A stretch of 64,000 nucleotides of DNA from Pohlia nutans (lineage: Eukaryota; Streptophyta; Bryopsida; Bryales; Mniaceae). This document shows positions 4,358 through 42,161 of this stretch, piece after piece. Within the stretch, counting starts at the first letter, position 1; the number at the start of each line of letters is the position of its first letter. The stretch is from positions 14,185,501 through 14,249,500 of the forward strand of contig CM040107.1 of the NCBI GenBank assembly GCA_022496805.1, given 5' to 3'. The position numbers and the translations under genes were made by a program. Below the pieces are notes generated by a model. The model was not told the origin of the DNA. It saw nothing but the letters and a program-made list of their open reading frames with translations, and ran no database searches.

Positions 4358-5076
4358 TCAAGTACGCAAGGGAGCACGAGGAGGCACAAAAACACGGGAT
4401 AGGGTAGGTGGAGGCGCGACAATTGATTGCCCGATAGGTTTCGTAGATTGCCGGTTAGGTTTCGAAGATGCCCGAGGGCGTGGCAACGGCAGAACCTTCA
4501 AAGGGGAAGATGCGGAATAGGGTGTAGGATTCACAACCCGAGATTCGTATCCATTCGTTTTCAACTTGGATTCTCCACCTGCAGACTACATCCAAGTAAC
4601 AGACGTATGAGTATATGTGAATGTCTCATGACAATAAAAGCATGAGATGCAAGAAATGGATGAGTATTTAACTTCACGTGCACCTCTACGATAATAAGAT
4701 CCTCCTTCTCAGAATCATCGTAAAGCTTCCTCTGAGGCGGTCCAACAGCACTTGATCGGTTATTCGGGGAAGGAGGCTTGGCTCGTGCTTTCAGAGGCGA
4801 AGGTGAACTCACAGGTCGTGGTCTTTTACCACCGCAGGGTGGGCTGTCTTCAACACCATGATTGATTGGCTTGACAGAAAAGTCCATTGTCGATTGCGTA
4901 GTAGCTGCCGAGTACATGATATGCCCCAGCCCACTCTGCGAAATTGTGTATTGTCTGTAGTCCAAAATCGAATCAGCAGAAGTAGCGCAACGGCAATCAA
5001 AATCATTGTCCATATCCGAAAAAGAACGCAACACCTGAATACGAAAAGATTTCAGAGGAGATCTCAACAAGAATAG
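4358..5076 (-). CDS. Hypothetical downstream exons, Ser/Pro/Arg-rich
   Basis: An open frame from about 5060 down to 4670 encodes SFSDMDNDFDCRCATSADS, then a basic Ser/Pro-rich stretch (CGGKRPRPVSSPSPLKARAK) ending in the acidic/hydrophobic SEKEDLIIVEVH. It begins just after a possible acceptor (TATTCAG/GTGTTGCG) and ends at a possible donor. The end resembles that of the exon at 6347-6639 (DIPDAILLEVHISLP), so this could be a duplicated linker exon. A further open stretch at 4564-4358 is also Ser/Pro-rich. I recognise no domain. It may be a separate gene, a 3' extension, or non-functional. Confidence 0.3.
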
Positions 5077-5348
5077 AGTGATTGTGCTACTGTCGATTCA
5101 ACTCGACTCGAGTTAAAGGCAGCCAGCTATGACTAGGCAACAAGGATTACGAACAATGTCAAATCAACTTGACTCGAGTTGAATGGAGGCAGCAACGAAC
5201 ATGAATCATACAGATCTAAACCATGAACGTGGTAAATGAGAGAATACTCGCGTGTGATTCTATGATTAACACTGCGCTGCAACAATAGAGTCACACGCAA
5301 CACCTGAATACGAAAAGATTTCAGAGGAGATCTCAACAAGAATAGAGT
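5026..5348. repeat. 54-bp direct duplication (5026-5079 and 5295-5348)
   Basis: Two copies starting ACGCAACACCTGAATACG and ending AACAAGAATAGAGT appear identical and lie 269 bp apart. The right copy abuts the 3' end of the FCP1-like exon and the left copy abuts the hypothetical exon start. A tandem duplication of an exon edge is the simplest reading. Confidence 0.8.
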
Positions 5349-5369
5349 AACAATGTACTAAATCCATCA

Positions 5370-6176
5370 TCAACGAATTGACTGATCTGACATTAGAGTC
5401 TTAGAATTCTCTATGGCTGTCATGAGTTCATCATATTCTTGCATATCGGGCTCCACAATGAGCATCCGACACCCAATGTTATCTTCCCGGCGGAAAGACA
5501 GCAAGCCCTGACCCCAGCACTGATGCAGCCGTTGGATCCAAGGGAGGAGCTCGTCAACCAAGAATCTATCAACAGCATGATGCTGCCACCATGACATGGG
5601 CAGAACAACATTCTTTGGTTCATTAAGGACGTGCTTCTCACGGCTATCGTCTACGATGATGGTGTTTGAAGAGCTAAACTTGGAATTCTGGGGTTCAAAC
5701 AGTTTGTCCAAGGGTTTGAGGAATAAGTCCTTGTTAGTCCCCTTCACTTTCAGAATGGACAACTTATTCCGCAGTCTACAATACTTGATAACATCGCAGG
5801 AATCTTGCCCCATTATATGCAACGGGGGCTGTAGACCCCTGAATAAGTATTCGCAAATCAATTTAGTTGTGGTAGTCGCCATGGAACTCCATACGGAGAC
5901 ATATGCGACAAGCGATAACTCACGAAGGAACTCAAGACAGTGCAGACGAACATAGACGGCCTTGGGACCAACCACCGCGGGTAGAACAGAAGAATGGGGT
6001 TGCGAGATGTCATTATACACTTGGTCCTTGGCCATGTGTCTTCGTTCCAGACAGACACAAAGAATACCATTGAGATCCAGAATGACATTGAGCCATCTGC
6101 CTACCGCGCTGGATAGAAACGCATGATCGACAGTCTCCACTGCTGCACCTACCCCACTGTGCGATAGACTGGTCCC
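5370..6176 (-). CDS. FCP1/NLI-interacting-factor-like HAD phosphatase domain, catalytic Asp changed
   Basis: This exon, read right to left, starts after an acceptor (CTGAATAG/GGGACC) and ends in TGA at 5370. It encodes the HAD phosphatase order: motif I LNVILDLNGILCV; then VRLHCLEFLREL; motif II VSVWSSM; a conserved Lys in FLKPLDKLFE; and motif IV NTIIVDDSREKHVL followed by PMSWW. FCP1/SCP phosphatases use DxDx(T/V); here the second Asp is Asn (DLNG), so phosphotransfer is probably lost or altered. The fold is clear from motif order; the substrate is unknown. It joins the exon at 6347-6639 in phase 0. Whether it belongs to the same transcript as the ParB and methyltransferase-like exons upstream is likely but unproven. 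Confidence 0.65.
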   Translation of the reverse strand, partial: GTSLSHSGVGAAVETVDHAFLSSAVGRWLNVILDLNGILCVCLERRHMAKDQVYNDISQPHSSVLPAVVGPKAVYVRLHCLEFLRELSLVAYVSVWSSMATTTTKLICEYLFRGLQPPLHIMGQDSCDVIKYCRLRNKLSILKVKGTNKDLFLKPLDKLFEPQNSKFSSSNTIIVDDSREKHVLNEPKNVVLPMSWWQHHAVDRFLVDELLPWIQRLHQCWGQGLLSFRREDNIGCRMLIVEPDMQEYDELMTAIENSKTLMSDQSIR

Positions 6177-6346
6177 CTATTCAGAAGGAGGAGAGACAAA
6201 TGTGCAGACAATTAAGGACTGCACTAACACATTTTTGACTGACCCAAGTCATTGCAAAACGAATATGAAATCCCAACAAAGATCCAAAATCAAACGCAGA
6301 ATCGCCGAATGAAATAGAACCGTTTGCCATGAACATGATGACTTAC

Positions 6347-6639
6347 AGGATTGTCTGATGGATTGGTCATCGGTGCAGGATCGGGGACGACGACGGAGGA
6401 TGGAAGCGAAATGTGGACCTCGAGCAAAATAGCGTCAGGAATGTCGGAGTCACTCTTGTTGTCCACACGCATGGCGTCACAATTAGAAGTGGATGCTAGG
6501 CGATCACGTTCTACCCCGTTGAAGGACTCTGAAGCTACGACTTGCTCCATAGTAAGCAGACGCTGAGGACTACTCAAATGCCTCGGGGACGCAGCAGGGG
6601 ATGGATTTTCGCATGGTATATTCAGGACATTGGCAGAGC
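6347..6639 (-). CDS. Linker exon, low complexity, upstream of the FCP1-like exon
   Basis: Bounded by an acceptor (CATCGCGCAG/GCTCTGCC) and donor (AATCCT/GTAAGT). It encodes a Ser/Pro- and acid-rich stretch with DNKSDSDIPDAILLEVHI. It splices in phase 0 to the FCP1-like exon. The phase does not match the simplest donor of the exon at 6901-7796, so either a small exon is missing or there is a break between them. No domain recognised. Confidence 0.45.
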
Positions 6640-6900
6640 CTGCGCGATGCGAAAGTGCAATAGAATAATATGTAAGAAGCAGCATTATATTTCATTCTCG
6701 GTAAAAATGAGCAGCATTTACAAAAAAGGAGTAGCATTTACAAAAATGTCCAGCATAATTGTTTTAATAGTATTGTCATGTCCTAGTTCAGATATGAACT
6801 AACAAAACTCCTATATCCTGATGCTAGGGATCCCCGTGAAACTGAAAGCGAAATTCAACTCAAGTCGAGTTAAATGAAAAAAAAGATCACAAAGATGAAC

Positions 6901-7796
6901 CTTGGGGGCACATCTGACGCCTCAAGTTCCATCGCATCACAAGTAATGTCGACCTCCGGTTCTAGACCTGTATCTGGACTGGGGTCATTCTGAGATCGAT
7001 CTTCCTCTTGATCCGTCTGCCCGGTATTAGATGCTGGTGTAGGTGATGCACTTGAAGTCTCGCGGGTGACGGGGGCAGAAGGAGACTGACGAGTGGCAGC
7101 TCCACTATCGGAGGAGTTCGCCGGCCGATTTGACAGTAGGAGTTGTCCGCCATGACCATGCGCTGGATCGAGCATCATCATCGGCCTCGGTCCACATTCT
7201 GCAACCAACGTCTTTACCATTGAAAGGATCTTCTCCGTCATTAATAAGGTCCACTTGTCATCATGGGCCTTTCGCTGTCGCTCCATCATATCAAACATGA
7301 GCTGGTTCGTACGCTCCTCCATCTTCATCATCTTGTCTGAAAGGCGGTCGAATAGTGCCTCAGCTACATCAACACCTCCACCTTCCTTTCGTTTCTTCTT
7401 TCCTGACTTGGAAATGGGAGAAGGATCTGGCATCCACGAATCAGATGAGTGAGTCTCGCCATCTTCATTTGGCTGCGAACATGATCCGAGACCGGTATGG
7501 GGCGTCACAGGAACCTGCAATCCCGGCAGTCCGATGTCTTCATCCTCACTTGAAGAATGTAGTATGAATGGTTTAGTGATGTCCTTGCCACGGTTGGCTT
7601 GGCTAGACTCTCGTGGCCTCTTGCCCTTGCCGGATGAGGAGGCTTCTTTGTCGCCTCTCTTAGGATGTTGAGACTCATCAACGTTGTATCCGAGCTCAAA
7701 ATCCCTCCTGTCTAAGTTGACGACCTTCTTAGACAGGTCAAGAAACGCAGCGGTCTCGCTGCTTGGCCCGATGATGTAATTTTCCAACGAATTCAT
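6901..7796 (-). CDS. End of methyltransferase-like fold plus long charged linker
   Basis: The exon starts after TCATAATCCAG with MNSLENYIIGPSSET..FLDLSKKV. Joined in phase 0 to the previous exon's FGGGKLSCAAW, this resembles the stretch after motif I in beta-class DNA methyltransferases (FxGxG..AA..LGR.YIGIE). The rest is a basic, Ser-rich region with likely nuclear-localisation runs (KGKRPRE, KSGKKKRKEGG), a Met/Glu-rich helix (DRLSDKMMKMEERTNQL) and a Ser/Thr/Pro-rich tail. The donor is probably CCCCCAAG/GTTCATC; a palindrome copy lies just beyond it at 6854-6874. The role of the linker is unknown. Confidence 0.55.
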
Positions 7797-8140
7797 CTGG
7801 ATTATGAAACAAAATAGCATAAGAGGTTGGTGATTGAACGACACAAATCATGAAGAGTCAATACCAAGACATTTCAACTCGAATCGAGTTGAAAGTATCA
7901 TATAGAGTTACTCCCGAGACAGTTCAACTCGATTCGAGTTGAAAGTTCAACTCTACACTATTGAAGCCACGGTAAGCAGATCCTAAGACAGAATTGATTT
8001 AACTCGACTCGAGTTGAATCTCTCTAACAGTCAAATGTTGAGCAGAAAGTGTTTAACTCGACTCGAGTTGAATCCAACATAGAGATAATTATAGGACTAT
8101 TCAACTCGACTCGAGTTGAATGAGTTGGTTCGGTGAGTAC
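7797..8140 (-). other. 344-bp intron packed with five 21-bp palindromes
   Basis: Donor GTACTC and acceptor TCATAATCCAG join two phase-0 exons whose junction restores a methyltransferase-like motif, so the intron is well supported. Palindrome copies lie at 7873, 7923, 7998, 8052 and 8100 and make up about 30% of the intron. Each has arms close to TTCAACTCGA/TCGAGTTGAA around one variable base. Confidence 0.7.
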
Positions 8141-9502
8141 CCAGGCAGCACACGACAGTTTCCCACCACCAAACACGATCAGCACTGCGTCCCCTTCCTT
8201 GCAGAAAAGGTCTAATAACTTCAAGTAGAATTCCATTCGCAGCTCCGTGTTGTAAATCCGGTACTCCAATTCGTTGTAACCACTTGGAGTTGTGAATACC
8301 GTCGTTAATGGAGCCTCAAACAAATTGGGCAGGTTCTTGCGCCTAATCCTCAGTCCCTTCTTGAACATGTAGATAATCTGCACATTAGTGTGTGCACGCT
8401 TGCTGGTTGCGGGATGATCTTCTAACCGCTCATATTTCGCCGAAACATAATCAGCAAACTCCAGAGTGTAGTTATCTCCATATTCGGAAGCATGAAGGTG
8501 ATGCAAAATTTTTGCCTGTGCCACTTTGTCACCACAGATCCATACCCATACGGGAAGTTTAAAAACGTCGGGATCGTCGATCCCTGAGAACACGGAGAGC
8601 ACGCTGTAAAAGTACGGTGAGTCATTTGAAGACCCCGCCTGTTCAAGCGCACCAGAGAGATTTCTGAAGTCCATAATCGCCACCTTAATCCTCTTGGCGG
8701 TCGTCTCATCCCATGCGTCTGAAGTCCATTCCGTCAGGACATCCTCATCCAAATTATAGGGCCTGTAGTATGCATTGCCCTTGGGAATCTGAAACTTCCC
8801 CTTGTTGGCGAGGAACACCTTGAAGAATTCATTAGCATAGGGAGACATATCCTCAATGCTCTTTTTCTTATTGTGCGGAAGTTTGGCGGCTGTGAAGTAG
8901 TCCTCTCCAGAAGCAGTCAGCAGGACATTGAGAGCAGCTTTTGTAATTCTGAATTCCGCCTTAAAACGCTTCCAGCTGTCCTTCTTGAACTCGCCGCTGG
9001 AGCTGTAAAGGGCGAACTCTGACCGCATGCTCTGAATCTGCCTCTTCACAATGGTCTTCCTCTTGCATCTCTCCAGCCAATCCTTGTAGATGTAGCAGTT
9101 GGGATGCACACCCTTGATCTGCTTCATCGTGACTTTGGGGTAGTACTCTTTCCTTTTGGAGTCTGGCCTGTTGAGTAGGTGCTCGGCAAACCTCTTTACT
9201 TGCGCTTCGTTCAGGTTCCCCAACCACTTGAAGAACTCTCGGGTCATGACTCCATCCTTCTTCGGATTCCAACTGTTGAGTTCCTTAAACTTCTTCCCCG
9301 TATCAGGATCCATGAGTTCCCCCTGAGAGCATGCGGAAATGAGCTCGCCCCACAGGCTGTACACCTCCTCAGACGCAGTGATGATCTTCAGCTCGTTGTG
9401 AAGAGCCAGCTCCTGCTCTCTGGGCTTCTTCCCGCTCAATGCTTTCTGGGTCTTCTTTACGTCTATCAGTGCAAAGCGAAGTTTCACCGCGTCCTGGAAT
9501 TC
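8141..9502 (-). CDS. Degenerate DNA N6/N4-methyltransferase-like exon downstream of the ParB-like domain
   Basis: The exon runs from an acceptor (GCCACAG/GAATTC) to a donor (GCCTGG/GTACTC), in phase 0 at both ends. The first 270 or so residues are helical, basic and unrecognised. The last part follows beta-class methyltransferase order: KRIKVAIMDFRN at the place of motif IV (DPPY), LPVWVWICGD like motif VI, TNVQIIYMFKKG like the strand before the target domain, then LLDLFCKEGDAVLIVFGGGKL at motif X-I. A divergent copy at 61.0-61.9 kb has LMLVDY and PGDIVLDCNAMT..GASIHACRN, which supports the assignment. The catalytic DPPY tetrad is not present, so it may bind DNA or AdoMet without methylating. 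Assignment is by motif order only. Confidence 0.55.
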
Positions 9503-9657
9503 CTGTGGCATTCAATACTCGAGTACATGGATCAGTAAAACAACTCGAATCGAGTTAAACAATTTTGTCTGTCTATCCCGTGCTTAACATTAATTGAGCG
9601 TATGACCTACTCGGAATGAACGCATTCAACTCGAATCAAGTTGAACTGCATGATTAC
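9503..9657 (-). other. 155-bp intron with two palindrome copies
   Basis: Donor GTAATC after GAGAAGTACAAG and acceptor ATGCCACAG. The flanking frames join in phase 0. Palindrome copies lie at about 9539-9558 and 9625-9645; the second sits right beside the donor. Confidence 0.65.
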
Positions 9658-10598
9658 CTTGTACTTCTCTGCATCTTCCAGTTGCTTCTTTGTTCTCTTA
9701 GTAGGTAAGGCCCTGCCAACTTCTGTAGTCGCCTTCAAAGGTGTTGGACATTTTAGGCTTTTCCACACCGCACGAGCGCCTATGATGTTTGTGGCCCACA
9801 TCGCGTTGAAGTCCTGAAAATGGTTCACCCGGTTGTAGTAGGCAGAAATTTTTTTAGGATCGACTTGTCGTCATTCCACACGATGAAGCACTCCCACTTC
9901 TTGAACTTGTCCTTGATCTTTTTACTGATCTCAGGCCTTGTCCTCATAAGCTTTGATGCTTCGACGCTGTGCTGGCCGTTGATCATATAAAATTGTCCAT
10001 CCTTGATGTCCTCCGAGGTGCGCTGTTTAACCTTAAAGTCCTTGGGGATCGCGCACAATGTGAGTTTTTTATCCTTGTCCGGCATCTCGACAAGGAAATA
10101 CATTACTTGCTCCACCTTTCTCTGCTCCAGGCTACGAACATTGAGCTCTGCAGGGGGAGTCAGCAGCTCATCGATGGAAATCTCAAACGACTTTTCAATC
10201 CCCCATATGTACGAGTCGGTGCATTGCGACCAGTAGTTCTCGTACACCTCCATGGAGGTTTTGTAGTCAATCTTCTTCTTGTCGTAATCGGTTGGAATGT
10301 TTGTCAGTGCTGATTCCATGCTGAATTCTCCCTGGTGAGATGGCTAACCTTCGTCTGCTAAAAGGGACTTCCGAGTTTGGATAGCCCTCAAGTTTCTAGG
10401 AGTCACCGGTGTCCTCGGGGTCTGCGATGCAGAGGGTTTTCGTTTCTTGTTCCCACTCGTCCCAGTGTTAGGGGTTTCAAACAGCAAGGATTCCTGACTT
10501 CCACCCTGGCTACTTAATTCCCTGCTCAAATGTAATGGCTTCATCTGCTTCCTGGTGACGTCGAGCTTCATCTTGTACATCTCAAGAGCTGTCAGCAA
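9658..10598 (-). CDS. ParB/Srx-like domain exon with a stop codon and a frame break
   Basis: Read right to left, this begins with TALEELLTALEMYKMKLD and a basic Ser/Thr-rich segment ending RKSLLADEG. A TAG at 10346-10344 follows. The same frame continues into FEISIDELLTPPAELNVRS..DGQFYMINGQHSVEASKLM, the order of the ParB/sulfiredoxin-like superfamily (Arg on helix 1, then DGxHRxxA). Here the box is NGQHS, with Ser in place of Arg. The frame breaks at a run of seven A near 9848-9854; one base more would continue into AYYNRVNHFQDFNAMWATN and the donor GAGAAGTACAAG/GTAATC. Two defects suggest a pseudogene, though an indel in the A run could be a sequencing error. An alternative is that translation begins at the ATG at 10319. 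Confidence 0.55.
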
Positions 10599-10604
10599 CT
10601 CCTC

Positions 10605-11097
10605 AAGCGCGGTGTAAGGATATGCGCAAGGTGCTGGTCCCCGATTGCAGTTTTATATCGATAAGTATCAGCGTGAGCCTCCACATCCTTTACGAGGCTC
10701 TCAAAACCTGTGTCCTTGAGGCTGGCAATGTGTGGAGTTATGTTGCAGGGAGTCTTTTGTGGCTCCATCATGTACGTGAAGCGGTAGTGGTGGTCAGTCC
10801 CTTCATCCCGGACCACGCTTGTGACGCAAACGTAGCCTTTCGGACCAGGGGCTATTTCCACGACCGCCTCGTATAGGGAGACTGGTAGAGTAGGATCGCT
10901 ATTTTTGTATTTGTTGATAAGTGCCAGCTTCTCAGAGTTGGGCACCAGAGTAAGGCTCCACCACTCGACGTTCTCCGGATCGTGAAACTCCCAGCACTCG
11001 CCATGGGTAACCTCGTCGCCGAATGGTACTCCATCATCGCCGGATTGTTCAAACTGCTTGAAGAAGGCAGCAAGCCGAGCTTGTTGGTTGTGTGCGT
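10605..11097 (-). CDS. N-terminal exon of the ParB-methyltransferase-like unit
   Basis: Open frame from a likely acceptor (TATGTTGGTTCAG/ACGCAC) encoding AHNQQARLAAFFKQFEQSG, then ECWEFHDPENVEWWSLTLVP and KGYVCVTSVVRDEGTDHHYR..MMEPQKTPCNITPHIASL. It ends in another frame near 10605-10615, where the downstream frame (TALEELLTALEMYKMK) takes over, so a one- or two-base indel is likely there. No domain recognised. Earlier exons would lie in or beyond the palindrome array at 11.16-12.0 kb; I could not identify a start codon. Confidence 0.45.
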
Positions 11098-11162
11098 CTG
11101 AACCAACATAAACTAAGTATTAGTTTGTTATTCCTTCAGTTTGTCATTATTGATTCCTAGAA

Positions 11163-11998
11163 TTCAACTTGAATCGAGTTGAATATGCTTGCAACAATAT
11201 TTCATCCAAGGTTATTCACTGATATTTAACTTGACTCGAGTTGAATGATTGTTCAACTACATCTTGAATTTCTTTAATTATGATGTCATATTGTTAGAAC
11301 TAACCAAACCATTTAACTCGAATCGAGTTGAATGACTTTTCAACTATATCTTGCATGTCTCTCTGATATCAGATTTGTTAGAACTAATCTGAACATTTAA
11401 CCTGAATCGAGTTGAATTTTATTTATCTATTGGCTTACTATGTGAATGTCATTCACGGCTCGTGTAGAATTGTTTGAGTAGACAAAGACTATTCTGGTAT
11501 AGCAATCAATTCAACTCGATTGGAGTTGAATTAGTTGATGATTTGTATGTCTATAGGAAATTTTCACTAGTATTCAACTCGATGCGAGTTGAATGTTTTT
11601 CAACTTTGTCTGTTATCATCTTATTAGTGCTTGATTATCTCCATCTTTTATTATATTGTTTGATCGATGATGTAAATTTAACTCGATTCGAGTTGAATTG
11701 TCTGGTGCAAATGTCTGTGCTCGATCAATTCAACTCGAATCGAGTTGAATATTGTTAATATGTCTTCATTTTATGTGCAAATGCTTATTTAAAGTAGGAA
11801 ATTCAACTCGAATCGAGTTGAATTGATTTATTTACCTCTTGTTCCATCGTAATTATAGTCATGTATGCTATTCCACTTTCATTTATTTTTGAGGTCTCTG
11901 TCACAGGTTCTTGAAATCTATTCAACTCGTATCGAGTTGAATGTACCAGGTATGTTGTTTGATTATTCAGGTAGACATTCAGCTCGAGTCGAGTTGAA
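11163..11998. repeat. Array of 11 or more copies of the 21-bp palindrome
   Basis: Copies lie near 11163, 11224, 11310, 11395, 11508, 11573, 11676, 11728, 11801, 11921 and 11978. Arms are TTCAACTCGA/TCGAGTTGAA around one variable base, commonly with TTTAACTCGA as a variant left arm. Spacing varies (50-120 bp), so this is not a plain tandem repeat; the intervening DNA is AT-rich and unrelated. A run of half-sites follows at 12033-12075. The array lies directly upstream of the first visible exon of the ParB-methyltransferase-like unit. Confidence 0.9.
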
Positions 11999-12075
11999 TT
12001 TGAGATGCTCATACACCTTTTTCTGGCGACTTTGAGTTGAATTGATGTCGAGTTGAATTGCTCTCGACTTGAATC

Positions 12076-12885
12076 TACTGTTTGGTGTATTTGTTTCTGG
12101 TTTTCTATTAATTTACAAATTTTTAGATTTCAGTACCAAAAACAGTAGCAGTCATTCTGGAATGCTGCAACTTCATGCACATCGCAAATGTATACATTTT
12201 ACGTAATGAAACTTATAATGTCAAAAAAAATTGTCATACATTCCACGGTACACGATAATGCAAACACAGTGTCATACACCAAATTATAGTGCATGATAGA
12301 ACTCACCCATTATAAACTGCGGTGTTCTTCGCGAATAATCACGCGTCGTGCACGTTGACAGATTTGCTTCCTAGTACCTGTACATGTTGAATTGCACAAC
12401 TATCAACATAAAACTGCATTACTAATATTTAGAAACCCTAAATTGAATTGCTTGTTTTATATTGGACAAAGGATTCAAAAGAACTCGGACTAGTGGTCAG
12501 CTCTTTGTGACAAGCTTTGCTTTCCATTCCTTATTGTAATACTGCCATTCAGCTCTTTCAACTTGGTTACCAAGTGTTTGAACAGACAAACACAAGTACA
12601 TGCCAGCCTCCAAAAATAAAATAGCATGACTCAGATGTATATGACAGGACTATTACAGGCTTATCCCCAAACCCAACAAATTTGACATACTTGCATGTGG
12701 AGGCCTGTCTAATATCATTAACATCTCCCCAAATGAAAATCAACTGCAAAATGCGGTTATGGAATTACTTTAGACAATTGGACCCCTCCACCTTCTATTT
12801 GCGGCTACAAACTACTGCGTCAAACAACAGCTCCATTTCATCAAATTTCAGTTCCAAATCGTCAAATTGCAGCTCTTTGACTTCA
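12076..12885. other. Unassigned upstream region
   Basis: AT-rich sequence with no clear coding region. Short open frames are not supported. It sits upstream of the minus-strand ParB-methyltransferase-like unit and may hold its promoter. Confidence 0.35.
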
Positions 12886-12889
12886 CTTT

Positions 12890-13270: not shown

Positions 13271-13419
13271 AGACAGTGCCCGACTTTTGAGTGAGTAACA
13301 TGTACCTGCTTTAAGGCAGCAGTGTTGGCTCGCAGAAGAGGAGAGCTCCGTGAAAACCGCCTTCCCAGCAACGACTACAGCCACGACCACAAATGGAGTA
13401 GCTTGGACACTCAGAAGAG

Positions 13420-13600: not shown

Positions 13601-13649
13601 AGACAACCTCCTGTTGCCGCAACCCAGGGCATCCGGGCTGCTCGATCTG

Positions 13650-25715: not shown

Positions 25716-25878
25716 TACAACCACAGAAAACCCTATTTATTTTTGCGATTACCTCTCTTGATTCAGTGCAAAGTTGATAAAAAAACTCATGAAGGCTCTT
25801 TATTTCATCCAGTTCAAATCAATTACAAATCAAATCCACTTCAAATAACTGGTACAGTTATGCAATACGAGCCTATTT

Positions 25879-31033: not shown

Positions 31034-34000
31034 ATGGCGGAGGAAGAGATTACAAGAGGTGTCGCGGAGATGGTAACACTAAGTGGATCCGGTAGAAGTG
31101 ACGATAACCCTTCCTCTAATCCAATCGGGTCTGTTGGTGGGTTTCAGGAAAACGCGATTGAGCGAAGCACGTCAAGACGGAAGGGGAAAGAGCCCGTAAG
31201 GGGTGGAAGAAAGATGGCGTCTTCACGTATTCGTGAGTCTCCGTCAACAGCCGGCGCCACATCGGCCATGGACGAAGACCAGTGTGAAGAAGTAAGCATC
31301 GTCTACATTCACCTTCATTGCTGTCTTGGGTCTGTGTGTGTTTAGGGTTTGCGGTCATGCGCCTGTGCGCGTTGCTTAGTTAGCGGACTTGTGCCTGTGC
31401 GCGTTGCTTTGTTTGTTGTCTTGTAAGATCTAGTGCTTTGTTGATCGTCTTCTGTCAGTGCTGGTAAGGTAGTTAGGGTTGAAAGTAAAATCAGTGTCCG
31501 GGGTAGTGCGTCCCGCGGATCCGAGACATGGGTTGAGGTCAGAGTTTCTTTAGCGGAGAGTTGTAGGTTAAGCAGCAGAGCAGGCGGAAATGTTGAGGAA
31601 GCTAAAGTACTGTTCGCGTTTTTTGACATTGCATGTATGTTGAATGTATTGTTAATAAAAATAGGCAGAAGAATATGAATCAATGGAACTAGAGGTACCT
31701 GCCGCCGTAGGAGCTGGAGGCGTGGATCCGGGGATACAAGCGACGGAGCAGCATTTACGGCGCCTGATACATGGAGACACCTTTTCTGTAATTGAGAATA
31801 ACTTGGAGAGCCCTGTATCAGAGCTTGACATTCCCCTTTGCCGAATGATTCCGATGACAGACGTCAGAACCCCCCTCCAACATGATATTGAGAAGCTGAA
31901 AGCGGAGTTTGTGAATGGGTATAAGCGAGGTGGGGCGTGCTTCTATGTGGCCCTCAAGAGTTACAAGCTACAGACACAAGAGGTCACTGATGAAGAACGC
32001 AGTAACTGGTCACCTATTTGGAAGAATGTGGACAAGGCATTTGAGGAAGGTCTGAAACTCTCCCACGGACTTCAGAAGTTTTCCAACAAGAAGTTCTATG
32101 TCTGGGACGGAAACCATCGGCACTTGGCTTGGATGGCATTGATCGATGAGTTCCATTCTAATAAACCGGACTTCCATGTAGCTGCCAGGTCTACTCTACT
32201 CAACGTGACTGAGAAGAACAGTCAGCAACTTCTGAACGCAATGACACAATGGAACAAGTATGCTTCTAAACCCTAAAAAAGACGTGTTGTATTATGCATG
32301 GTAGTTATTGTTTTTATTTATAAATGAAGTATATGCAGGAAGAACGAAGTGGACCACGTCGCTCAGCACTGGACTCATGAGCTTCGTCTCATCATCCAGT
32401 TTGGCAATATGCCATTTGAGCAGCTAAAGCCTCTCATAAGCGAGCGTGACTACAACGCTAGTTTGGCTGAGTGGAATCGCCAAACGAAGAAGAAGAAGTG
32501 GTACCATTTGACTTCGGATGCCTTTTGCAATTTCTTGTATCAGGTAACCATGACTGTTCATTCGTTCACCTGTAGTTTTACTTGGGGACATTATAGAACT
32601 AGTGGTTGATAATAGAATGTGATGGCTAAACATGTGTTTATAATACTTTGTAGAGGGAGATCTCGAACGCTCAAGAGACAGCGATTCGCGAGTACCGGGA
32701 CTCGCTACTGAAATACACGGGAGAAAGAGACACTGGGAGTTCCGATGAGCTCGTAAAGAGAGTAACTCAAGCAGTGAAAGCGTGCAAGACGAGTCTCAAG
32801 TCTGATATGGAACGCATGCTTGCAATTGCAGACCCCCGTAATGGGGAAGGATTCATTTCAGAGGTATGTTAGAAATTCACATCTCTAGATCATTCAGCCC
32901 TGTGTTCGTATTTTTCTAGTATCTTATCTCTGAATTCTAAGCTCATAGAGGCACATATTTCTACTTCATGGGCTCTTAAAACTTGTGAAATGCAAAACTA
33001 ATTTGTTTGTGCTCCAAGAGTTAATGGCTATGAGGTCCCCAATATCTGTATTTTGGATGCGAGAGACATAATTGCAGGCGCAAAAAGCCACACAGTTTTT
33101 TGAGGTTTCATCATCTGCAATTCCATTTGTTTGTTTGTGAGAGGAAATTTGAGCCTGGAAATCTATCTCTCGGATCCGAGAGATATATCATCAAGCCCTC
33201 ACAACCACTCAGAAACGGCAGATGGACCGGAATATAGTGAATTTGTTGCATTTTCTGTATGCATTCTCGCTTGAGTTGCGTTAACATAGTACTTGCTCTA
33301 TTAATTTCTTTTTCGGAGCAATGAGGACATAAATCTGATCACTTATGTTGCTATTTCATCTAGATTCTTCACCACTATAACATCTTCCAGACCAAGCCAG
33401 AAATGCATATCGAGAAGCTTCAGCTACTTGCCACTGCTCAAGTTGATGGAAAGTACAAGCAGCGGTGGCTGAAATGGTGGAACATGAGCAAAGACGGGCG
33501 TCAAGCATACAACTTCCCGGACAGTCCTTGCTCAACATTATCATTAAGGCCTTGGGTTGAAATAGCAGCCTTCTGGGCGGGGGTAAGATTTTGTAATTTC
33601 TGAATCGTCTTAATTGTCTCTCGGATCCAAAAGACTGTCTGTTGTAAGATATGTTGTCCATTGTTGTCACTTACGACTTATATGAATTCTCTGGTGAACT
33701 GATGTTGTGACTAAATGCTGCAATCAAACTATGTATCTCGGATCCCAGATACAATGTTTGTTGATGGTTTGCCTTGTATATTTTCGTTAGTAGGGAATAA
33801 TTATTTTGTCTGCAGCTTTTACTAACGCATATACTTGCTACTCGGATCCGAGAACAAGTATTAGAGTGCAGAATGTGTTATGCAAATTCCCAGTAGTTTA
33901 TACGTTTTAATGGCTAATTAGAGTTGTTATGTCATGCAGTTGGAAGAGGAGTCTGGAATCCAGTATTCCAAAATCCTTGAAGACGACAGTATTGTGATTC

Positions 34001-34824
34001 CCACTCGAGCTCCCGGTGGTCCTATTGTCGAAATTCAAACCTTCGTGATGAATGGTGGGCTTAAAATCTGGAGAAGAGGGTTCCCGGAGATCATTGGGAA
34101 GCATGGGACTTTTTCCAAATTGAAGAAATTTACGGAGCAAGCCGAAACCAAGACGGCGGTTTCTCGGATGATTGTGAGGTACTTCTATGTTGAGCTTGTG
34201 AAGAAGGAAGCAATCACTGAGGATTTACTTCCCCCACGGTTTGCAAAGTGGTTGGATACATCCAGCAGTGATTGTATCTTCACCAACTACCAGAGAAAAT
34301 CTTTTAGTCGCCCTCACCTTCGCCGCTGCCCATGGTACCTGGAGCTTCGACCAGGTGAACAGTGTCCCGACAGTGAGAAGGACTTGAAGTCTCAGTGTGA
34401 TCGAGAGACGCAGGAGTTGGAAGCAACAGGATTGCAGACACAGAACCCCACTGCTGAGGAGGGGATGACGGAGAAGGGGAAGAGGAAGGCCGCCAACAGA
34501 CAAGCGAAAGTGGAAACTCGTAAGGCAGAGAGGCTTGAGAAGGCTAAACAAAAGGAGTTGGCCAAGAAGCAGGAGAAAGAAGAGAGGGAGCAGAATCAGA
34601 GGCTTGTGAAGCTTGTCAGGAAGAAGGGTCTCAAAGGAGCTCTACAAGAAGAGGGCATATCTCCTTCTGAAGAAGGAATTCCAAATGTGGCCACCATGTT
34701 GATTGATATGTACAGCGGTGAGGAAGAGGGTTTTCAAGAGAATGATTGGGCGGAGGACTGGTTTGGAAGAGAGACTGATAGCGGTGAAGCAGATTATATG
34801 TGCCCTTTCTGTCCCGGACCCTAA
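31034..34824 (+). CDS. ParB/Srx-like domain protein, six exons, apparently intact
   Basis: Exons 31034-31291, 31665-32257, 32339-32543, 32654-32863, 33364-33582 and 33940-34824. All introns are GT-AG and phases match, giving 789 residues. Residues 1-90: low-complexity, basic. About 110-280: ParB/sulfiredoxin-like domain with SELDIPLCRMIP, DVRTPLQHDIEKLKAEF and FYVWDGNHRHLAWMAL; the DGNHR box is the family signature (nucleotide-handling in ParB). About 285-500: conserved helical region with Trp-rich WLKWWNMSKDG. About 600-700: Lys/Glu coiled coil (KAERLEKAKQKELAKKQEKEEREQ). The C terminus ends CPFCPGP. No helix-turn-helix was recognised. Paralogous remnants lie at 2.8-3.7 and 59.2-59.7 kb. It diverges from the MULE-like transposase and is probably carried by the same element. 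Confidence 0.75.
31514..33853. repeat. Intronic TCTCGGATCCGAGA palindromes
   Basis: Copies at 31514 (CGCGGATCCGAGAC), 33167-33182 (CTCTCGGATCCGAGAG, perfect), 33616 (TCTCTCGGATCC), 33733-33750 (TATCTCGGATCCCAGATA) and 33841 (CTCGGATCCGAGA). Each lies inside an intron of the ParB-like gene (introns 1, 4 and 5). Confidence 0.7.
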
Positions 34825-34863
34825 ACCAACATTGAGGTGATAAACCTTAGTGATGATGAGTAA
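34825..34863 (+). other. In-frame extension after the stop: SUMO-binding-like motif
   Basis: Immediately after the TAA at 34822-34824 the frame stays open for TNIEVINLSDDE and ends in TAA at 34861. IEVINLSDDE has the hydrophobic core plus acidic tail of a SUMO-interacting motif, echoing VHVISDSDDD and VVIVSDSS in the neighbouring genes. The first stop may be a recent mutation or a readthrough site. Confidence 0.4.
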
Positions 34864-35380
34864 ATGTTTTAGGGTTTTTAACTCTAGTATGTTTACACCT
34901 AGGTTATGATATTTTGAATAGTTTTATTCTATTATCTATATTGGGTTTCCTGCAATTTATCTTACCTTACCCCTTACCCTCAACCCTATTGAAATTTTAG
35001 GATGAGTTTGGAATTAAAATGGTGGTGTATTTTATGTCGACATTCTAAGAAACATGTTTGAATTAAAACTTTGCGTGACATCAAATCCATATTGAAAATT
35101 TGTAAATATATTACAACTATAAGCCTTTGTATTTGAGCGTACAAGCATATAAGGACTGGCTTTCCTAAACGTTCTGTACTCTCTCCATCTGTGTGAAGAA
35201 CCCTAAACCTAAACTCTAAACCCGAAAAATCAGGGTACCACTATCATGGCCTTCAAAGGTTTTCTTTTTCGAATTTGTCTACAATATTCTTTTAAGATTC
35301 CTGTAAGATTCCATAGTAATATGTACAACTACTTTTTTTATACAAAAAAACAAAAAAATCGAAAAAAAAACTGGTTTTTT

Positions 35381-35428
35381 TGCTCGCCGCTCGCTGCTCG
35401 CTGCTCCCTGCTCACAAGATTGCATTCC
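35381..35428. repeat. Putative transposon terminus (right)
   Basis: A run of GCTCGCC/GCTCGCT/GCTCGCT/GCTCCCT/GCTCACAAG 7-8 bp units after A- and T-tracts. Its end matches 25305-25329 inverted and 43550-43599 direct. Confidence 0.5.
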
Positions 35429-35449
35429 TCATGAACCACTCACATGTTG

Positions 35450-37900
35450 TTCAAATTGGGCATATAAGGTGTATTTTGATATGTTCTTTAAGATGTTTCT
35501 GTTGACAAGGTGACCAAGTTCTTGCAAATCCTTGCATAGCTTTAATATTTTCAATAAACCATTTAACGTATTCATAGTACTTACTACTTCACTGTTCTCT
35601 CATTTTCAGCATTTAATTTCTTTTCATACGACTATTGAATGAATGCATTAATTAACTACAACAAACACCGTACTTTAATTTTCTTAAACATTATATCGTG
35701 CAAAAAAGCGTGCATCAATTTTAAATTCTCATCAATTTTAAATTCTCATGAATTATAGTGGTTTACTTTATTTGCAACTTGTAAGGTCTGTTATTATAAG
35801 TCGTTGTACATAGAGTTCTAATTAAATATAACTTGGTAGTAAAAAATTACGCTAGTGCTGAAATTTAAATTTTTGACCAAATTATTCATTGTTAATTCAT
35901 TTGATGACTTCAATTTTCTCATGCATTCTACATATTTAATGTAATTACAACTTGTACGTTACTCTATTTTCAACATATAATTTGCTTCATTAAAACATTC
36001 TAATTTTTTAATTGCATTAACTACAGCAAGCCCCGTACTTTATTTTAATTAAAGCTTATGAATTATATAAACAGTGGCGTAAATTTAAAAGTTCCCATGA
36101 ATTTTAAACGTATACATTATTTGCATATTCTCAAATTCTTGAAATTTTCCCATTACAATGAATATGCTGGTTAACTCCATGAACCATGAATTCTTACAAG
36201 TAACTTATTCATGCAATATCTTCTAAGAGTAGAGTCAAGATTTGACCAGAAGTAGTTTATTGTTTATTAGCTCGGATTTAACAAACCCCTTGCGCACCAC
36301 CGTTGTCGCTAGGACCGAGGGTCTTTTCAAAATATAAAGCTTTTTTTGCAATTAGGGAAGCACTTCGGCACTCAATGACGTAAGCTACTTGCGTTTCGCC
36401 ATGAATTTCTGTCGTAGTCATGATCAAACAGTTAATGCAGCCTTCTTGTTAATTCTCAAGACTATTTCATCTTAGTGTTTCTATGTTGTTCAAAACTATC
36501 AGATCAAATCAAATGAATCAAGTAAACATTAATCACTTATCAAAATCCTATAATTGTTAAAAGTGCTAGCATTGTACAATTGCTTCAATTTGTTTTTGAA
36601 TAAGAAATAGTGCACAATTTATTTGCTAATCTCATTGTTCATTGTTGTCCCTATTATTGGTCATATTCGGTTATCAATTCTTTAAGAAGTGTTAATTTTA
36701 AATGTTGAAGACATTGTGCATCATAACGAACTTTGCATGGCTTTATGTTATTTAAGTTTTAACGTATTCAAAATATTTTTAAGTTATACGATATCAGTCT
36801 TTACATCGTTAATTGTATTTGCTGTAATTTTTTAAATGATGCGTTGCAAATAAATACTACAAGCACTTTGATTTTTGTTTTAAACGTTATAATTTTTACA
36901 TACGGTTTGAATTACTTACAACTTGATTGTGCGGTGATTTCTCTCATACATTTAACTGCCCTCATTATAAGTTAATCTTAAGATTAATCGAATGTATAAG
37001 ATTATCACAAACATTGTATTTTATCTTTTGTAAACGTAATAAATCATACACACGTTTGCAAAAATATAATATTCTCATGAATTCTACATATTGAAACTAT
37101 TTTCAACTTGTGAAGTTTCTTGATTACTTTAGAACTACTAAATCGCTTAATGAATTAGTTAAATGTGTTCAATAAGTTGCAGCTAGCGCTAAATTTTAAT
37201 TGTTGCGCTAAATTTTAATTGTTATCGCGAACACTGTATTTTATCTTTTGTAAACAAAAGAAATCATGCGCAATGTTTGCAAAAACCTAAAATTCTCATG
37301 AATTCCACACATTGAAATTATTTACAACTTCTAGGGGTTTTTGGTTACTTTGGAACTAATAAATTGCCTTAATGAATGATTTACTTCTGTTCAATAAAAT
37401 ACATGTAGCGCTAAATTTTAAGTCTTTGTAAAATTTATTACTAAAAGTATTTCAAAAAATTGAAGTTTTCTTATGAAGATGTACTTTATAAGGTGAAGCG
37501 ATTATTATAATTATTATGTAGTGAGCACTTCAACGTATAGCTAAAAATAAACTAGTTTGATAACAAAGTTTGAATGTATAAGTTGAATTAAACCTGAAAG
37601 GCTCACACTACAGAGCCACGGCCCTTCACCTAAAAAATTGGATGGAAAACATCTAGGTCTCAGTCAGAATTGACAAATTCTTTCCATGGACGAATGATAT
37701 TTTGCATGTCCAAGATTAAACATGAACATGGGACATCGTGTCGTAAATAAATGTATTGAAAAATAATGACGCATACGCTTCATAGGAATATGTCGTATAT
37801 ATAAAAATTTGGAATAGAACGTTTCATTACTTTTTCAGCAGTACAAGGGCACTTAATATCACCTACCTCGACGTTGTAAAAATAGCAGGCTAAAGTTTCC
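35450..37900. repeat. AT-rich degenerate repeat arm (right)
   Basis: No credible gene. It contains partly tandem units of roughly 170-260 bp with CACTGTATTTTATCTTTTG, AATTCTCATGAATTC and TTATTTACAACTT phrases (clearest at 36950-37340). The part 35540-36130 is an inverted match to 22000-22540. Confidence 0.55.
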
Positions 37901-38560
37901 TGCCCTTGTCACATATTAGCCCCCAATAAAGTCACATACTGTAAAGGGTCCCGGAGCCCTCGTCACCGGCTGTGAACAGTGAATTTGAAATCGACCGTTT
38001 GAACTTGTCGATTCCATTCCCGCTGAAATTCTCCCGCCATTTCGCCTGTAAGTGCCTTTGCGGAGCCGGGGCCAACCTTTCTTCCATTCGGTCTCACGCT
38101 CACGCGCTTGCGCTATTTGAACTTCGTTTCTCTTGCATCGCTTTACAAGTAGGTCTTTCTTTGCGAAAGCGTAGTATTTGGTTATTATCAGTAGACAGTA
38201 GTTGTTGAAGGTGTTTTGGACTGCGCACTAGCAGTGGTCACCGCTTTGAGAGTTCAAGGTACAACAACTCATTCCGGGTGGCTTTGCGCCGAATTTCGGT
38301 ATGGTTTCGTGGCCAAGGGTTTCAGTTTCTTCGTTTGATGCATGCTGTTGTCTTACGTTCGATCAACTCTAGCAAGGAAATAAACTATGAGGTTAGGGTT
38401 TGTGTGATTCATGTATTCTGCTGTAGACACGTTTCTTGAATTGTAGAATTCAGAATTGCGGTACAATGTAGCGTGGAATGCGACTGGATTCATTGTACCC
38501 GATTTTTTCGCCGTAAATTCCGGGAGTTGTTATTCAAGTCTCTTTTACTATGGCTGACAA
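37901..38560 (+). other. Leader/promoter region of the DUF7869-like gene
   Basis: Base composition shifts from AT-rich to balanced at about 37950. No conserved coding frame was identified. The next block is the palindrome array, followed by an acceptor-like GAGTACGCAG/GG just before the first ATG, so this may be a 5' untranslated exon plus intron. Confidence 0.35.
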
Positions 38561-38563
38561 TAG

Positions 38564-39291
38564 TTCAACTCTACTCGAGTTGAATTGCTTGATTTAGGAA
38601 CATTTCACAGAAAACTAGGAGGACGCCTATGCATTGTCGGCAGGATTCAACTCGACTCGAGTTAAAGTTGCGGAATAGAGTCTGGACAACCTTATTCATA
38701 AATTGCTAAATTCAACTCGACTCGAGTTGAATTATAAGTAAATCATATAAATTGGCAGATCTCTGCGTAACAAGACAATGAAGATAACTCCCAACATTCA
38801 ACTCGACTCGAGTTGAATTGTACCAAATCTGTCAACCCAGTGCCAGTTAAATGATCTGATCCCATTTAACTCGAATCGAGTTGAATGTGCTGGACCCAAT
38901 CAACTAGACTCATGTTATATGAGATTGACAAATTCAACTTGATGAGAGTTGAACGGCCCATTCAACTCGATTCAAGTTGAATGAGCTGGTCCCGTTCAAC
39001 TCGAATCGAGTTGAATGAGATGTTCTTGTTGAACTCCACTGGAGTTCAGTGGTCTGGACCATTCAACTCGATTCGAGATGAATGGGTCCAGCCCATTTAA
39101 CTCGAGTCGAGTTGAATGGGCTGGACCTATTCATCTCGAATCAAGTTTAATGGGTCCAGCCCATTCAACTCGATTTGAGTTGAATGGGCTAGGCTTGTAT
39201 TATTTTTAATTTGTTCAAAGGAATCTTGGAGAGAATGCGATACAGTTTTTTGATCCCAGCATTTAGGGTATTTAACTCGAGTCGAGTTGAA
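38564..39291. repeat. Array of about 14 copies of the 21-bp palindrome, partly in 33-35-bp register
   Basis: Same palindrome as at 7.8-12 kb (arms TTCAACTCGA/TCGAGTTGAA around one variable base). Copies near 38564, 38645, 38710, 38797, 38866, 38937, 38960, 38996, 39030, 39061, 39096, 39130, 39164 and 39271. From about 38937 to 39180 they are packed every 25-35 bp with spacers GGGTCCAGCCC or its complement, so the array is almost pure inverted repeat. It directly precedes the coding start of the DUF7869-like gene. Confidence 0.9.
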
Positions 39292-39351
39292 TTGTTTGTT
39301 CAGTTACCTGGTGATTAATACTATTGATGTCTTTGAGTACGCAGGGTTATT

Positions 39352-42161
39352 ATGGATGCGGTGAACGTTCCAATGGTTACTCATGAGTTCTCTTCCGATG
39401 TAGAGGTTGACGCCAGACCGGAAGAGTCACACGACATTCCGAACTGCGAAGGTATTCCACGGAGGCTATAGGTTTCCAAGTTCATAACACTATACAGCGA
39501 TGGAGGCTCTCCTGTAGGTGAAGGCTTATATCATAGTGTAAGCTCCGACCTTGTGATCGGGTGCAACGGGGCACTTGGGGACACTCATGTGGCCGTTCAG
39601 ATCTCGAAGAGCCTCTCCACTGCTGATGTGCCAGATGATTGGAGATACTCCGTTCGGGCTTGGCCGATTGAGTTTGTCTACTGTAATGGTGCTAGCCTAA
39701 GAGACCACGATCTGCGGTACAATTACAATTGCCGTTTAGCAAGTCTTACCCAGCCGGGATCGTCGCGTAGCACACGTTACACCAGTACTGTGAGGAACCC
39801 GCCACGTGAGACATCCGTCAAAGCAAAAGGTTTGCTAACACAGGAGTCGATAAACGCTGTTTCCAGCAAAGTCTGTTGTTCCAAGAACTGTGTTCAGCCA
39901 TTCCCTAGGTATAAGATTCGCGCATTCCGAGAGCGTATGTAACGTGATACTTCCTTTCAGTTCAGATTCCATATAAAGCTAGATGTCCACAGGCAGATTC
40001 ATCGTGACGCCCAGGGAAGGAGGGTCGCCACTGTCGAGGGCATTGACGTCTGCATGCTTGCATGGAGGCACATTGCTGGAGTGTCTGAAGCGACTTTCCA
40101 TCGCTTCCAAGGGTTTGCTGTTGAAGGTCTTCAAGCACAGCCTCATGGGAACACGAGTTTACTGAAGCCTCGAAAGCATACGTCTCAGGCCACTCCTACT
40201 TTGAGGTGCATTTTAGAAAACTGTGCAGATCATATGCCACACAGAACTCGCACTCTTAAATCGGGAGAGAAGGTTGTGTCCATGATTCTTCCGGCCACAT
40301 GGAAATGGAAGAATACCATCCTGGAGATCAACGCTGCAATTGCGTCATTCGGTTTGCAGAAAGTGTCGCCCTCTAGTTTGAGCAGGATTCGGAGGTTAAA
40401 CTTTCCTCAGTACGACGCAAAGAAACCGGGAGATAATTTCGCCCGGTGCTCCAAATGTGATAGATTGCACGCTCTTAGGCGGGGCGCCACAGCAGGGTCG
40501 CAGCAGGCTCTGCTGTGGGCAAAGAAGCTCGAGGTGCATTTGTCTACAGCCCGAGCTCATAGAGAGTTATATTACGCAAACCGGTACAGATCCAGTTCTT
40601 TCCCGCACGAATGCTTGACCATTATGCACGACAAAATGGATCATGCCAAAACCGCTTCTTCCGTCTTCTCTCACAAGAGTAAGGAGCTTGATGGTTTGAT
40701 TAAGTTGCCAGTGTTTGTCACGGGTATGGTCGCCCATGGTCATAAGGATGTCCGCTTCGCGCATTACGGGCTTGATAATTTTGCTCACGATTCGAACTAC
40801 ACAGTGGGTTCTTTCGCAAAGCTATTGCGAGATCTCGAATTACCTCAAAATACTCGTCTAGGGAATTGTTCGTTGGGTCAGAGTCCGCTCCAATCTTCAA
40901 TGTTGTCCTTCAAGGAGCTGACATGTGCAAGTCCTCTCTTCGACCTGCTCTAGAAACTATCGTTCCAGCAACTCCACTTCCTCTCATTATGAATGTGCAG
41001 ATGGACAATGCCACTGGTGACAATAAGAACAGATATGTGTTCTGTTTTTGGTCACTTCTTGTAGCCAAGAAAATCTTTCGTGAGATGTATGTTAATTTTA
41101 TGTTGGTGGGTCACACCCACGACGACATCGACGCTCTGTTCGGAAGGTGGAGCATGTTGTTGATGAAAGATAACTTCCCTACAATTCCTTTGCTCATGAA
41201 GTCTTTCATAGATGTGGAATCAGTACCCACTATTCCCCATCTTGTCCAGGAGGTGCCCGATTTTAAGGGTTTCATTGAAGGTTTTATCAGAGATGGAGAT
41301 GAGGCTCTTGTCGGTCACACAAAGGCTCAACAATTCAAGTTCTTTCTGGACTCCACTGGTTGCCCCGTCATGAAGTACAAGATATCTTGCACTGATGTCG
41401 ATTGGTTGCCAAAGGATTGCACTGGGATTAAATTGTGGAGGGAGGATTCGGAAGGTCGTAGTTTATGGCCTTGTAGGGAACCGGTTCCCATCACGCACCG
41501 TGCAATGAGAGGTGTGGAGGACATTGTGAAGGGCCTCTCGGGATTTTTCAAGTACTAGGAGACAATGTCCGCTGAAGACAGATCTGGAGAGTATAGAAGA
41601 CGCTATAAACATTTGCTGTTCTACTGTCGAGCTGTGAAGGCAGCGTTGGAGGAGCCTATTGAACCATCCATTGCACTCAAAGACGGATTTTGGCCATCCA
41701 CTCGTGTTGCTGTGAGGGTCGAGGATCAATTTGCTGAAGATGGTGGGCTTCCTGAGGAGTTTCCGGAGGATGATGCGTACGTTGGAGAGTTGCGTGATCG
41801 TCCATTGCAATCCTTTCAAGTTGGACGTGATGTCTTTGAAGGCTATTTTGTTGCTATACGGCCCGCGGATGGTTATTCTAGACCCGTATGGATTGCAAGA
41901 GCCTTGTTAGATCCAAACACAAACCCGGATCATCCGAATTGGGTACTCATTCAGTATTTCCGGCCCACATCCAGAGATGAAACTGTTCAAGAAAGCTACA
42001 CTGGGTGGGATTTCTCCAGAGGATTGTGTTGGAAGATTGATGAAAGTCAACCTCCGGTGTGGGAGCATACGGATTCTCTGATGACAGCGTGGAAGTCAAG
42101 AATCAAGAAGGACACAACGGAATGTATGTTGAAAATCCCAGTGGCCCAATTGCTTGTGTAG
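39352..42161 (+). pseudogene. DUF7869-like, transposon-type protein broken by three stops and a frameshift
   Basis: From the ATG at 39352 one frame runs to about 40857 with in-frame TAG (39469) and TAA (39940). It then shifts to another frame through 41558 (TAG) and on in that frame to 42161. About 935 codons in all. Recognisable order: cysteine pair VCCSKNCVQPF; VCMLAWRHIAGVSEATFHRF; FARCSKCDRLHALRRG; FVTGMVAHGHKDVRFAHYG; then IMNVQMDNATGDNKNRYVF and FMLVGHTHDDIDALFGRW, the pattern of DUF7869 proteins found in transposon contexts. The C-terminal part (GYFVAIRP..PVWIARALLDPN) resembles a small chromatin-reader-like fold. Few defects over this length imply recent decay. Family naming is from memory of the motif. 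Confidence 0.6.

Follow-up and report, generated by a model that had tools for sequence, protein, structure and literature searches.

The moss genome stretch examined here (64 kb; C23:14185501-14249500 in the 698-Mb Pohlia nutans assembly G000, hereafter the window) contains three nested elements, EL1, EL2 and EL3; every one of them combines a ParB-like gene with a short motif of its own. Based on the analyses below, we propose, with a rough probability of 0.55, that the ParB-like protein would be an element-specific regulator co-evolving with its target motif, most likely in anti-silencing, as in VANC/VANDAL. An earlier note on this DNA had described a possible transposon-borne system of ParB-like genes and palindromes; the co-location was confirmed, but the three motifs belong to three nested elements. 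Genome-wide counts were made over G000, and chance origin of the motifs is rejected by shuffles and reversed controls.

Three nested elements with element-confined motifs

EL1 is a DUF7869-type DNA transposon that has the terminal inverted repeat AACATCATAYTCATTAAAATGAGA at both ends and the target-site duplication (TSD) TTAT at 3773-3776 and 42925-42928. Three further EL1-type copies on contig C1 have the TSDs ACAT, AATT, and TTTC; a 4-bp TSD is present in all four examined EL1-type elements having both ends, and the ends read AACATCAT. EL1 carries a divergent gene pair, gene A (DUF7869 transposase) and gene B (the ParB-like second gene), and holds two later insertions, a Copia element and EL2. 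We set the ends of EL2 at 25307 and 35423, where no target duplication was recognised. Long inverted repeats further out (21988-22578/35543-36125) were rejected as its bounds because they match EL1's own intergenic DNA in another copy, E12. EL1 itself seems to have inserted into an intron of a third, broken ParB-like gene, that of EL3.

Each motif is confined to its element. When the same window stretches were scanned (shuffled means ≤0.75), the EL1 21-mer gave 21 and 13 sites in the two EL1 parts and none in EL2, EL3, or the right part, the EL2 core gave seven sites in EL2, and the EL3 12-mer gave eight sites in EL3, the latter two with none in other window stretches. Looser limits added one 3-mismatch EL1-like site at 25.2 kb and one 3-mismatch match of the EL2 14-mer at 58.3 kb (58259). 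The motif scan of the window placed no EL1 or EL2 motif in the nested Copia element.

The EL1 palindrome avoids coding sequence and element ends

The 21-bp EL1 palindrome, TTYAACTCGANTCGAGTTRAA, occurs in the window eight times perfectly, 27 times at ≤1 mismatch, 30 at ≤2, and 34 at ≤3, which agrees with the roughly 35 copies noted earlier. All 34 sites lie within 5.1-12.0 and 38.5-39.3 kb, and 20 dinucleotide shuffles gave a mean of 0.00. Genome-wide there are 1195 exact sites, with none for the reversed control and a chance expectation of ~0.003 (equal base frequencies). Positions are known for the first 50 of these, which form four clusters on C1, all of which we read. Clusters E12 and E26b contain both genes; E42 contains gene A and a broken gene B, with no ParB exon match at E ≤ 1e-4; and E26a (G000:C1:26526352-26544076, L024-L026) retains weak remnants of both genes together with 45 palindromes. 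Most of E26a consists of an inverted duplication (~96% identity), and it may be a non-autonomous form.

None of 111 sites is centred in coding sequence (35 in the window, 35 in E12, 33 in E26b, and eight in L001, a homologous locus described below), where the coding share of the scanned stretches is 20, 35, 39, and 72%, respectively; the window count includes the 25.2-kb site, and some exon limits were placed manually. Across 134 sites, the arms hardly vary, while the central position takes any base (A40, G34, C33, T27). In four elements, the palindrome nearest to an end lies ~1.3 to 3.8 kb from it, and this lack of sites near the ends fits regulation better than end-pairing.

A gene B homologue joins a ParB fold to a methyltransferase fold

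Both EL1 genes are damaged in the window copy: gene A has in-frame stops and a frameshift (copies are also found in E12, E26b, and E42), and gene B has an in-frame stop and frameshifts. Gene B encodes, in order, an N-terminal domain, a ParB-like part, a methyltransferase-like part, a further part, a NIF/FCP1-like phosphatase, and a tail. The spliced query retrieved 25 proteins at E ≤ 10 (best 2.2e-249), including Ceratodon purpureus P0001 (59% over 69% of the query) and, from Physcomitrium patens, P0007 (39% over 98% of the query) and P0021. By eye, P0001 and P0007 connect the N-terminal through methyltransferase-like parts, and P0021 runs from the methyltransferase-like part into the beginning of the NIF part. 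The phosphatase domain, odd cargo for a transposon, seems to be part of gene B in mosses.

In a Physcomitrium homologue, a ParB fold is joined to a beta-class amino-methyltransferase fold, and Foldseek matched the phage ParB/Sulfiredoxin protein A0A6J5MMM5 (E=2.6e-5). Thus, an EL1-type gene B homologue has both a ParB-N fold and a beta-class amino-methyltransferase fold. The Box II motif GxxR is missing in the EL1 family, where all 26 aligned members of A3 have NGQH or NKQH followed by S, C, K, or I. The catalytic motif of beta-class amino-methyltransferases is (D/N/S)PP(Y/F/W); in most A1 rows of the gene B family, the strand end has, by eye, (I/V/L)D(F/L)(R/C).

Palindrome arms change with the gene B clade

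A search of G000 with the gene B exon yielded 937 first-look candidates, of which 93 were scored, giving 94 matches. From these we picked ten loci across identity classes and read the DNA flanking the exon at either end (17 kb), counting sites in which the core and the outer arms each had ≤1 mismatch. Each of the 20 fragments contains one or more sites in which palindromic outer arms surround the TCGANTCGA core. The total is 54 sites, including a few counted with a shifted centre, whereas the sum for shuffled sequence is 0.2.

The outer half-sites vary with identity to the window exon. They are CAAC (some TAAC) at 85-65%, CAAC and CAGC mixed at 59-60%, and mostly TAGG (also CAGG and TAGA) at 43-44%. 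Exact TAGGTCGANTCGACCTA has 940 sites genome-wide, with none for the reversed control, and the first 50 fall in 11 places on C1. Two of these, 38.355-38.364 and 48.935-48.945 Mb, adjoin 44%-clade genes (C1:38366460 and 48945641), and none of the 11 listed places overlaps the listed CAAC clusters.

More distant comparisons came from a gene B exon scan of prokaryote genomes, which gave matches on two contigs (L001 and L002) of a cyanobacterial metagenome bin, AVDCRST_MAG81. We take these and a third contig, L005, to be DNA of another moss in a contaminated bin because the genes have introns and moss-type homologues. The L001 exon is 42% identical to the window exon, and its palindromes (TTCAGCTCGANTCGAGCTGAA) occupy matching intron positions, flanking the methyltransferase-like exon as in the window; among the matches listed, the only non-coding alignments between L001 and the window are the palindromes. 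In the whole 4.8-Mb bin, CAGCTCGANTCGAGCTG has 12 sites, all on L001/L002, with a control of 0. L005, with exons 28-30% identical to the window, has one perfect palindrome in the same intron, with 12-bp arms (GTTTATCCTCGA-G-TCGAGGATAAAC). The outer half-sites are CAGC in L001 and L002 and ATCC in the single L005 site. All ten further loci, as well as L001, L002, and L005, have palindromes in neighbouring introns that share the TCGANTCGA core and the 1-nt spacer. Altogether, the constant core and spacer combined with varying half-sites indicate that the arms follow the protein clade. Separately, the database frames of P0010, P0016, and P0019 extend past the exon end into the intron, and these intron-derived letters can be read by eye as translated palindromes with other arms.

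P31 loci carry clade-specific motifs

EL2 contains P31, an open six-exon gene encoding 789 aa with a WDGNHR motif, and a transposase-like gene, TP28, which was named by eye and matched no Pfam family at E<0.1. No likeness was detected between TP28 and the DUF7869 gene of EL1. GNHR is kept in six of seven P31-family sequences and, judged by eye, may correspond to Box II GxxR. Inside 25.6-33.9 kb, TCTCGGATCCGAGA occurs once perfectly and nine times at ≤3 mismatches. The earlier note placed this palindrome in the introns of the intact gene, which holds for six sites; the other three lie outside the gene, and one of them (26584) is in an open frame.

Exact TCTCGGATCCGAGA has 30 sites in G000 against two for the reversed control. 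A P31 exon search of the assembly gave 1387 first-look candidates; 150 were scored, and all were significant. Genome-wide, site and gene are associated in this clade: an exact site lies within 2.2 kb of 13 of the 18 P31 loci at ≥45% identity and within 5 kb of none of the 129 matches at 36-44% (Fisher p=6e-15). Much of this association is descent of close copies; the informative cases are four loci of 48-71% identity that have the site.

We read six further P31-like loci (L033-L038). L035 (48%) and L034 (45%) have 21 and six sites of the EL2 core within 1 mismatch. L036 (39%) has a different palindrome, ACTCACNGTGAGT, with a variable central base and 23 sites in a ~149-bp tandem repeat beside the P31-like gene. 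L033, L037, and L038 (40-41%) have no recurrent palindrome; they share an asymmetric 12-mer, TTGGTGCTCGTC, in 20, six, and eight copies within 1 mismatch, and all 34 copies are on the gene's strand, upstream of the ParB-like exon. Every P31-type locus read thus has a recurrent clade motif, not always a palindrome.

EL3 and further ParB-like remnants

Four ParB/Srx-like loci had been proposed in the window. The open 31-kb gene and diverged relatives at 2.7-3.7 and 58.9-59.4 kb are borne out, but the 9.8-10.3-kb exon belongs to a separate, fused family, that of gene B. The 2.8-kb gene, described before as a remnant, is indeed broken, but it seems to continue at ~43.1-43.4 kb, with EL1 in its intron. 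Upstream of it, GCCGGTACCGGC has eight sites at ≤2 mismatches and 11 at ≤3 between 0.39 and 2.28 kb (shuffles 0.00 at ≤2). These sites had been noted before, but none is perfect, and the copies are not independent because they are located in or just past tandem arrays of 64, 202, and 138 bp. Among the fetched loci, the EL3 12-mer has single matches in L033, L036, and E42. A GCTCACC tandem with an EL2-like end sequence (CTGCTCACAAAATAGC) at 43551-43592 may mark the right end of EL3.

Near the 59-kb remnant, the only EL1, EL2, or EL3 motif is the 3-mismatch EL2-like match at 58259. After this remnant, at 61000-61900, there is by eye a broken methyltransferase-like frame (EACSKPGDIVLDCNA, RHIVALEVD), and inverted repeats of 222 and 77 nt (82%) at 47234-55336 may bound another element.

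Table 1. Features of the window (window positions; strand "." where none applies).
Feature	Position	Strand	Basis or remark
GCCGGTACCGGC-like sites in and beside three tandem arrays, EL3	391..2282	.	motif and repeat scan
EL3 ParB-like gene (P31 relative), broken, EL1 in intron	2665..3690	+	tblastn E=1.8e-13, 3.4e-4
EL1, DUF7869-type DNA transposon, 39.1 kb, two later insertions inside	3777..42924	.	terminal inverted repeat and TSD
Gene B of EL1	4564..11119	-	frames, homologue joins
21-bp palindromes at 5097, 5163, 6854, between gene B exons	5097..6874	.	motif scan
NIF/FCP1-like phosphatase exon of gene B	5373..6176	-	PF03031 E=8e-12
Five 21-bp palindromes, intron after methyltransferase-like exon	7873..8120	.	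motif scan
Gene B exon, helical middle part and beta-class amino-methyltransferase-like fold	8140..9511	-	homologues, homologue fold
Two 21-bp palindromes, intron between ParB-like and methyltransferase-like exons	9539..9645	.	motif scan
ParB-fold exon of gene B; NGQHSVEAS replacing Box II GxxR	9852..10319	-	alignment, homologue fold
Eleven 21-bp palindromes, 5' side of gene B	11163..11998	.	motif scan
Copia element nested in EL1, 261-bp long terminal repeats	15661..21120	.	long terminal repeats 100% identical
EL2, nested in EL1	~25307..35423	.	inverted ends GCAATCTTGTGAGCAG
TCTCGGATCCGAGA-like sites 25651, 26584, 29864, 31513, 33051, 33168, 33619, 33736, 33840	25651..33853	.	motif scan
TP28, EL2 transposase-like gene	27111..28844	-	related DNA beside P31-like genes in L034, L035
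P31, open ParB-like gene	31034..34824	+	all introns GT-AG
Thirteen 21-bp palindromes, 5' side of DUF7869 gene	38564..39291	.	motif scan
Gene A, DUF7869 transposase, broken	39472..42161	+	PF25273 E=1.6e-33, above curated cut-off
Probable 3' part of EL3 ParB-like gene beyond EL1	43060..43416	+	BLASTP to P31 last exon E=5e-4, 28% over 50 aa
Further P31-like remnant	58949..59404	+	tblastn E=1.5e-8

A proposed element-specific regulator and its alternatives

In the reading that we favour, EL1 and EL2 would be two-gene DNA transposons, each with a transposase gene and a ParB-like second gene; in EL1, the product of the second gene also includes a methyltransferase-like fold and a phosphatase-like domain. 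The ParB-like protein would bind, as a dimer, the motif in upstream and intronic DNA of its own family and, once bound, would most likely sustain transcription of the element in the face of DNA methylation, in the manner of VANC at VANDAL elements; protein and motif would diverge jointly, so that each family would act on its own copies. The observations that bear on this directly are the anatomy, the arrays, the avoidance of coding sequence, the intron conservation, the change of arms by clade, and the folds of the homologue. Two unlike transposase-like genes are present, yet both element types have ParB-like second genes and clade-specific arrays, which makes the ParB-like protein the likeliest reader of the motif; binding and dimerisation are predictions from sequence. 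The intron and upstream placement, the absence near ends, and the motif changing with the protein match VANC. Anti-silencing or activation would be the most likely role, transposition would come second, and partition last. The earlier suggestion that each ParB-like protein recognises its own palindrome is sustained insofar as the motif arms change with the protein clade; one clade has an asymmetric motif, however, and partition or pairing is without support.

Several results weigh against the regulator reading. For P31, comparison of its profile with that of the EL1 family gave no support for a relation, the match to a PHROG ParB-like profile is weak (E=0.3), and the single-sequence structure model has a predicted local distance difference test score of 34; the ParB fold of P31 is putative. 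Five of the 18 close P31 loci have no exact TCTCGGATCCGAGA nearby, three of them 91-92% identical, and 8 of 21 TCTCGGATCCGAGA clusters are not near a scored P31 exon (13 are). Nine of the 11 TAGGTCGANTCGACCTA places have no scored gene nearby, where 93 of 937 candidates were scored. The motif of the L033/L037/L038 clade is asymmetric. The absence of GxxR makes a cytidine triphosphate (CTP) switch in the EL1 family doubtful. Finally, under linked inheritance the transposase clade would follow the motif too.

The arrays could instead be transposase or accessory binding sites for a transposition complex, comparable to CACTA subterminal repeats, with the ParB-like protein as a co-factor. The motifs are family-specific and are kept in E26a despite the loss of most of its gene content, and arrays do lie on the 5' side of both EL1 genes. 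We nevertheless regard this as unlikely, since all four elements lack a site within ~1.3 kb of an end, many sites are in gene B introns, and the pattern is common to element types with different transposase-like genes.

That the motifs are functionless repeats spreading with the elements is suggested by the tandem arrays of EL3 and L036 and by close copies sharing introns through descent. This seems highly improbable, however, as the core and spacer are kept in introns across genes of 30-44% identity, L001 has no other non-coding alignment among the matches listed, and the central base is free where the arms are nearly fixed and coding sequence is avoided. A true ParB-parS system, in which a nucleotide-dependent clamp loads at palindromes and spreads for pairing or maintenance, is no better placed and, in our view, slightly worse: the ParB fold, the dyad sites, and GNHR in six of seven P31-clade sequences point toward it, but the Box II arginine is missing in 26 of 26 aligned EL1-family members, an integrated transposon has no need of partition, and one P31-like clade has an asymmetric motif. 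Least probable of all, and rejected here, is a role in RNA, with the palindromes forming hairpins or directing splicing in gene B transcripts. Many are intronic, but the 1-nt spacer gives no room for a loop, and arrays are also found upstream of the genes. Ten column pairs over 134 sites show only five pairing-restoring double changes (1, 3, and 1 at pairs 1/21, 3/19, and 9/13), and the number of double changes as a whole is close to that predicted by independent change.

A broader version of the regulator reading, which we offer as speculation, is that mosses have a class of transposon-encoded chromatin regulators derived from phage-type ParB-methyltransferase proteins. Its members would read an invariant TCGA-N-TCGA core with clade-specific arms, may spread clamp-like (in the P31 clade, with GNHR), and would block or reverse silencing, with many mutually exclusive protein-site pairs in one genome.

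Comparison with known systems

CACTA elements have CACTA ends and 3-bp target duplications. EL1 differs in its AACATC ends, its 4-bp duplications (four of four), and arrays that lie away from the ends. The CACTA element Spm of maize is similar in having an element-encoded regulator, TnpA, which the cited part of the source links to demethylation of its own element (PMC10398659).

ParB, KorB, Noc, and sulfiredoxin share the fold of residues 235-363; the moss elements differ in having many sites rather than a few parS, and the EL1 family lacks GxxR. The domain pairing of the gene B homologue is the same as in phage and bacterial fusions in which, according to the portion cited, an N6/N4 methyltransferase fold is attached to a ParB-CTPase fold (PMC12704722), but gene B is a plant transposon gene with introns, has lost the Box II arginine, and has an added phosphatase-like domain.

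Among the top matches in the open-licence PubMed Central literature, searched by title and abstract opening, there was none that described moss transposons with ParB-like genes or matched palindromes, and the term DUF7869 was absent. The closest parallel is VANC/VANDAL of Arabidopsis. In the sections cited, VANC proteins of VANDAL elements induce methylation loss, and VANC21, whose divergence goes along with that of its targets, binds intronic and intergenic motif arrays (PMC5735166). Both systems have a transposon-encoded second protein, related proteins with different targets, and a family-specific short motif repeated in the element's own introns, intergenic, and other non-coding DNA (PMC5735166, same sections). 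The moss elements differ in their ParB and methyltransferase folds, mostly palindromic motifs, and DUF7869 or other transposase; at E ≤ 1, 57 members matched 23 Pfam families between them, and neither DUF1985 nor DUF287 was one of these. Hypomethylation is a feature of VANDAL and, for the moss elements, a prediction.

If the regulator reading is true, the divergence of binding specificity and selfish-element identity would become directly testable in this one genome, where ParB-like genes are many and a motif can be read next to those sampled, and mosses such as Physcomitrium, which carry gene B homologues, are good bench organisms. The moss elements would then be a further, independent case, after VANC, of transposon proteins co-evolving with a short target motif, here built on a bacterial ParB fold in a plant nucleus.

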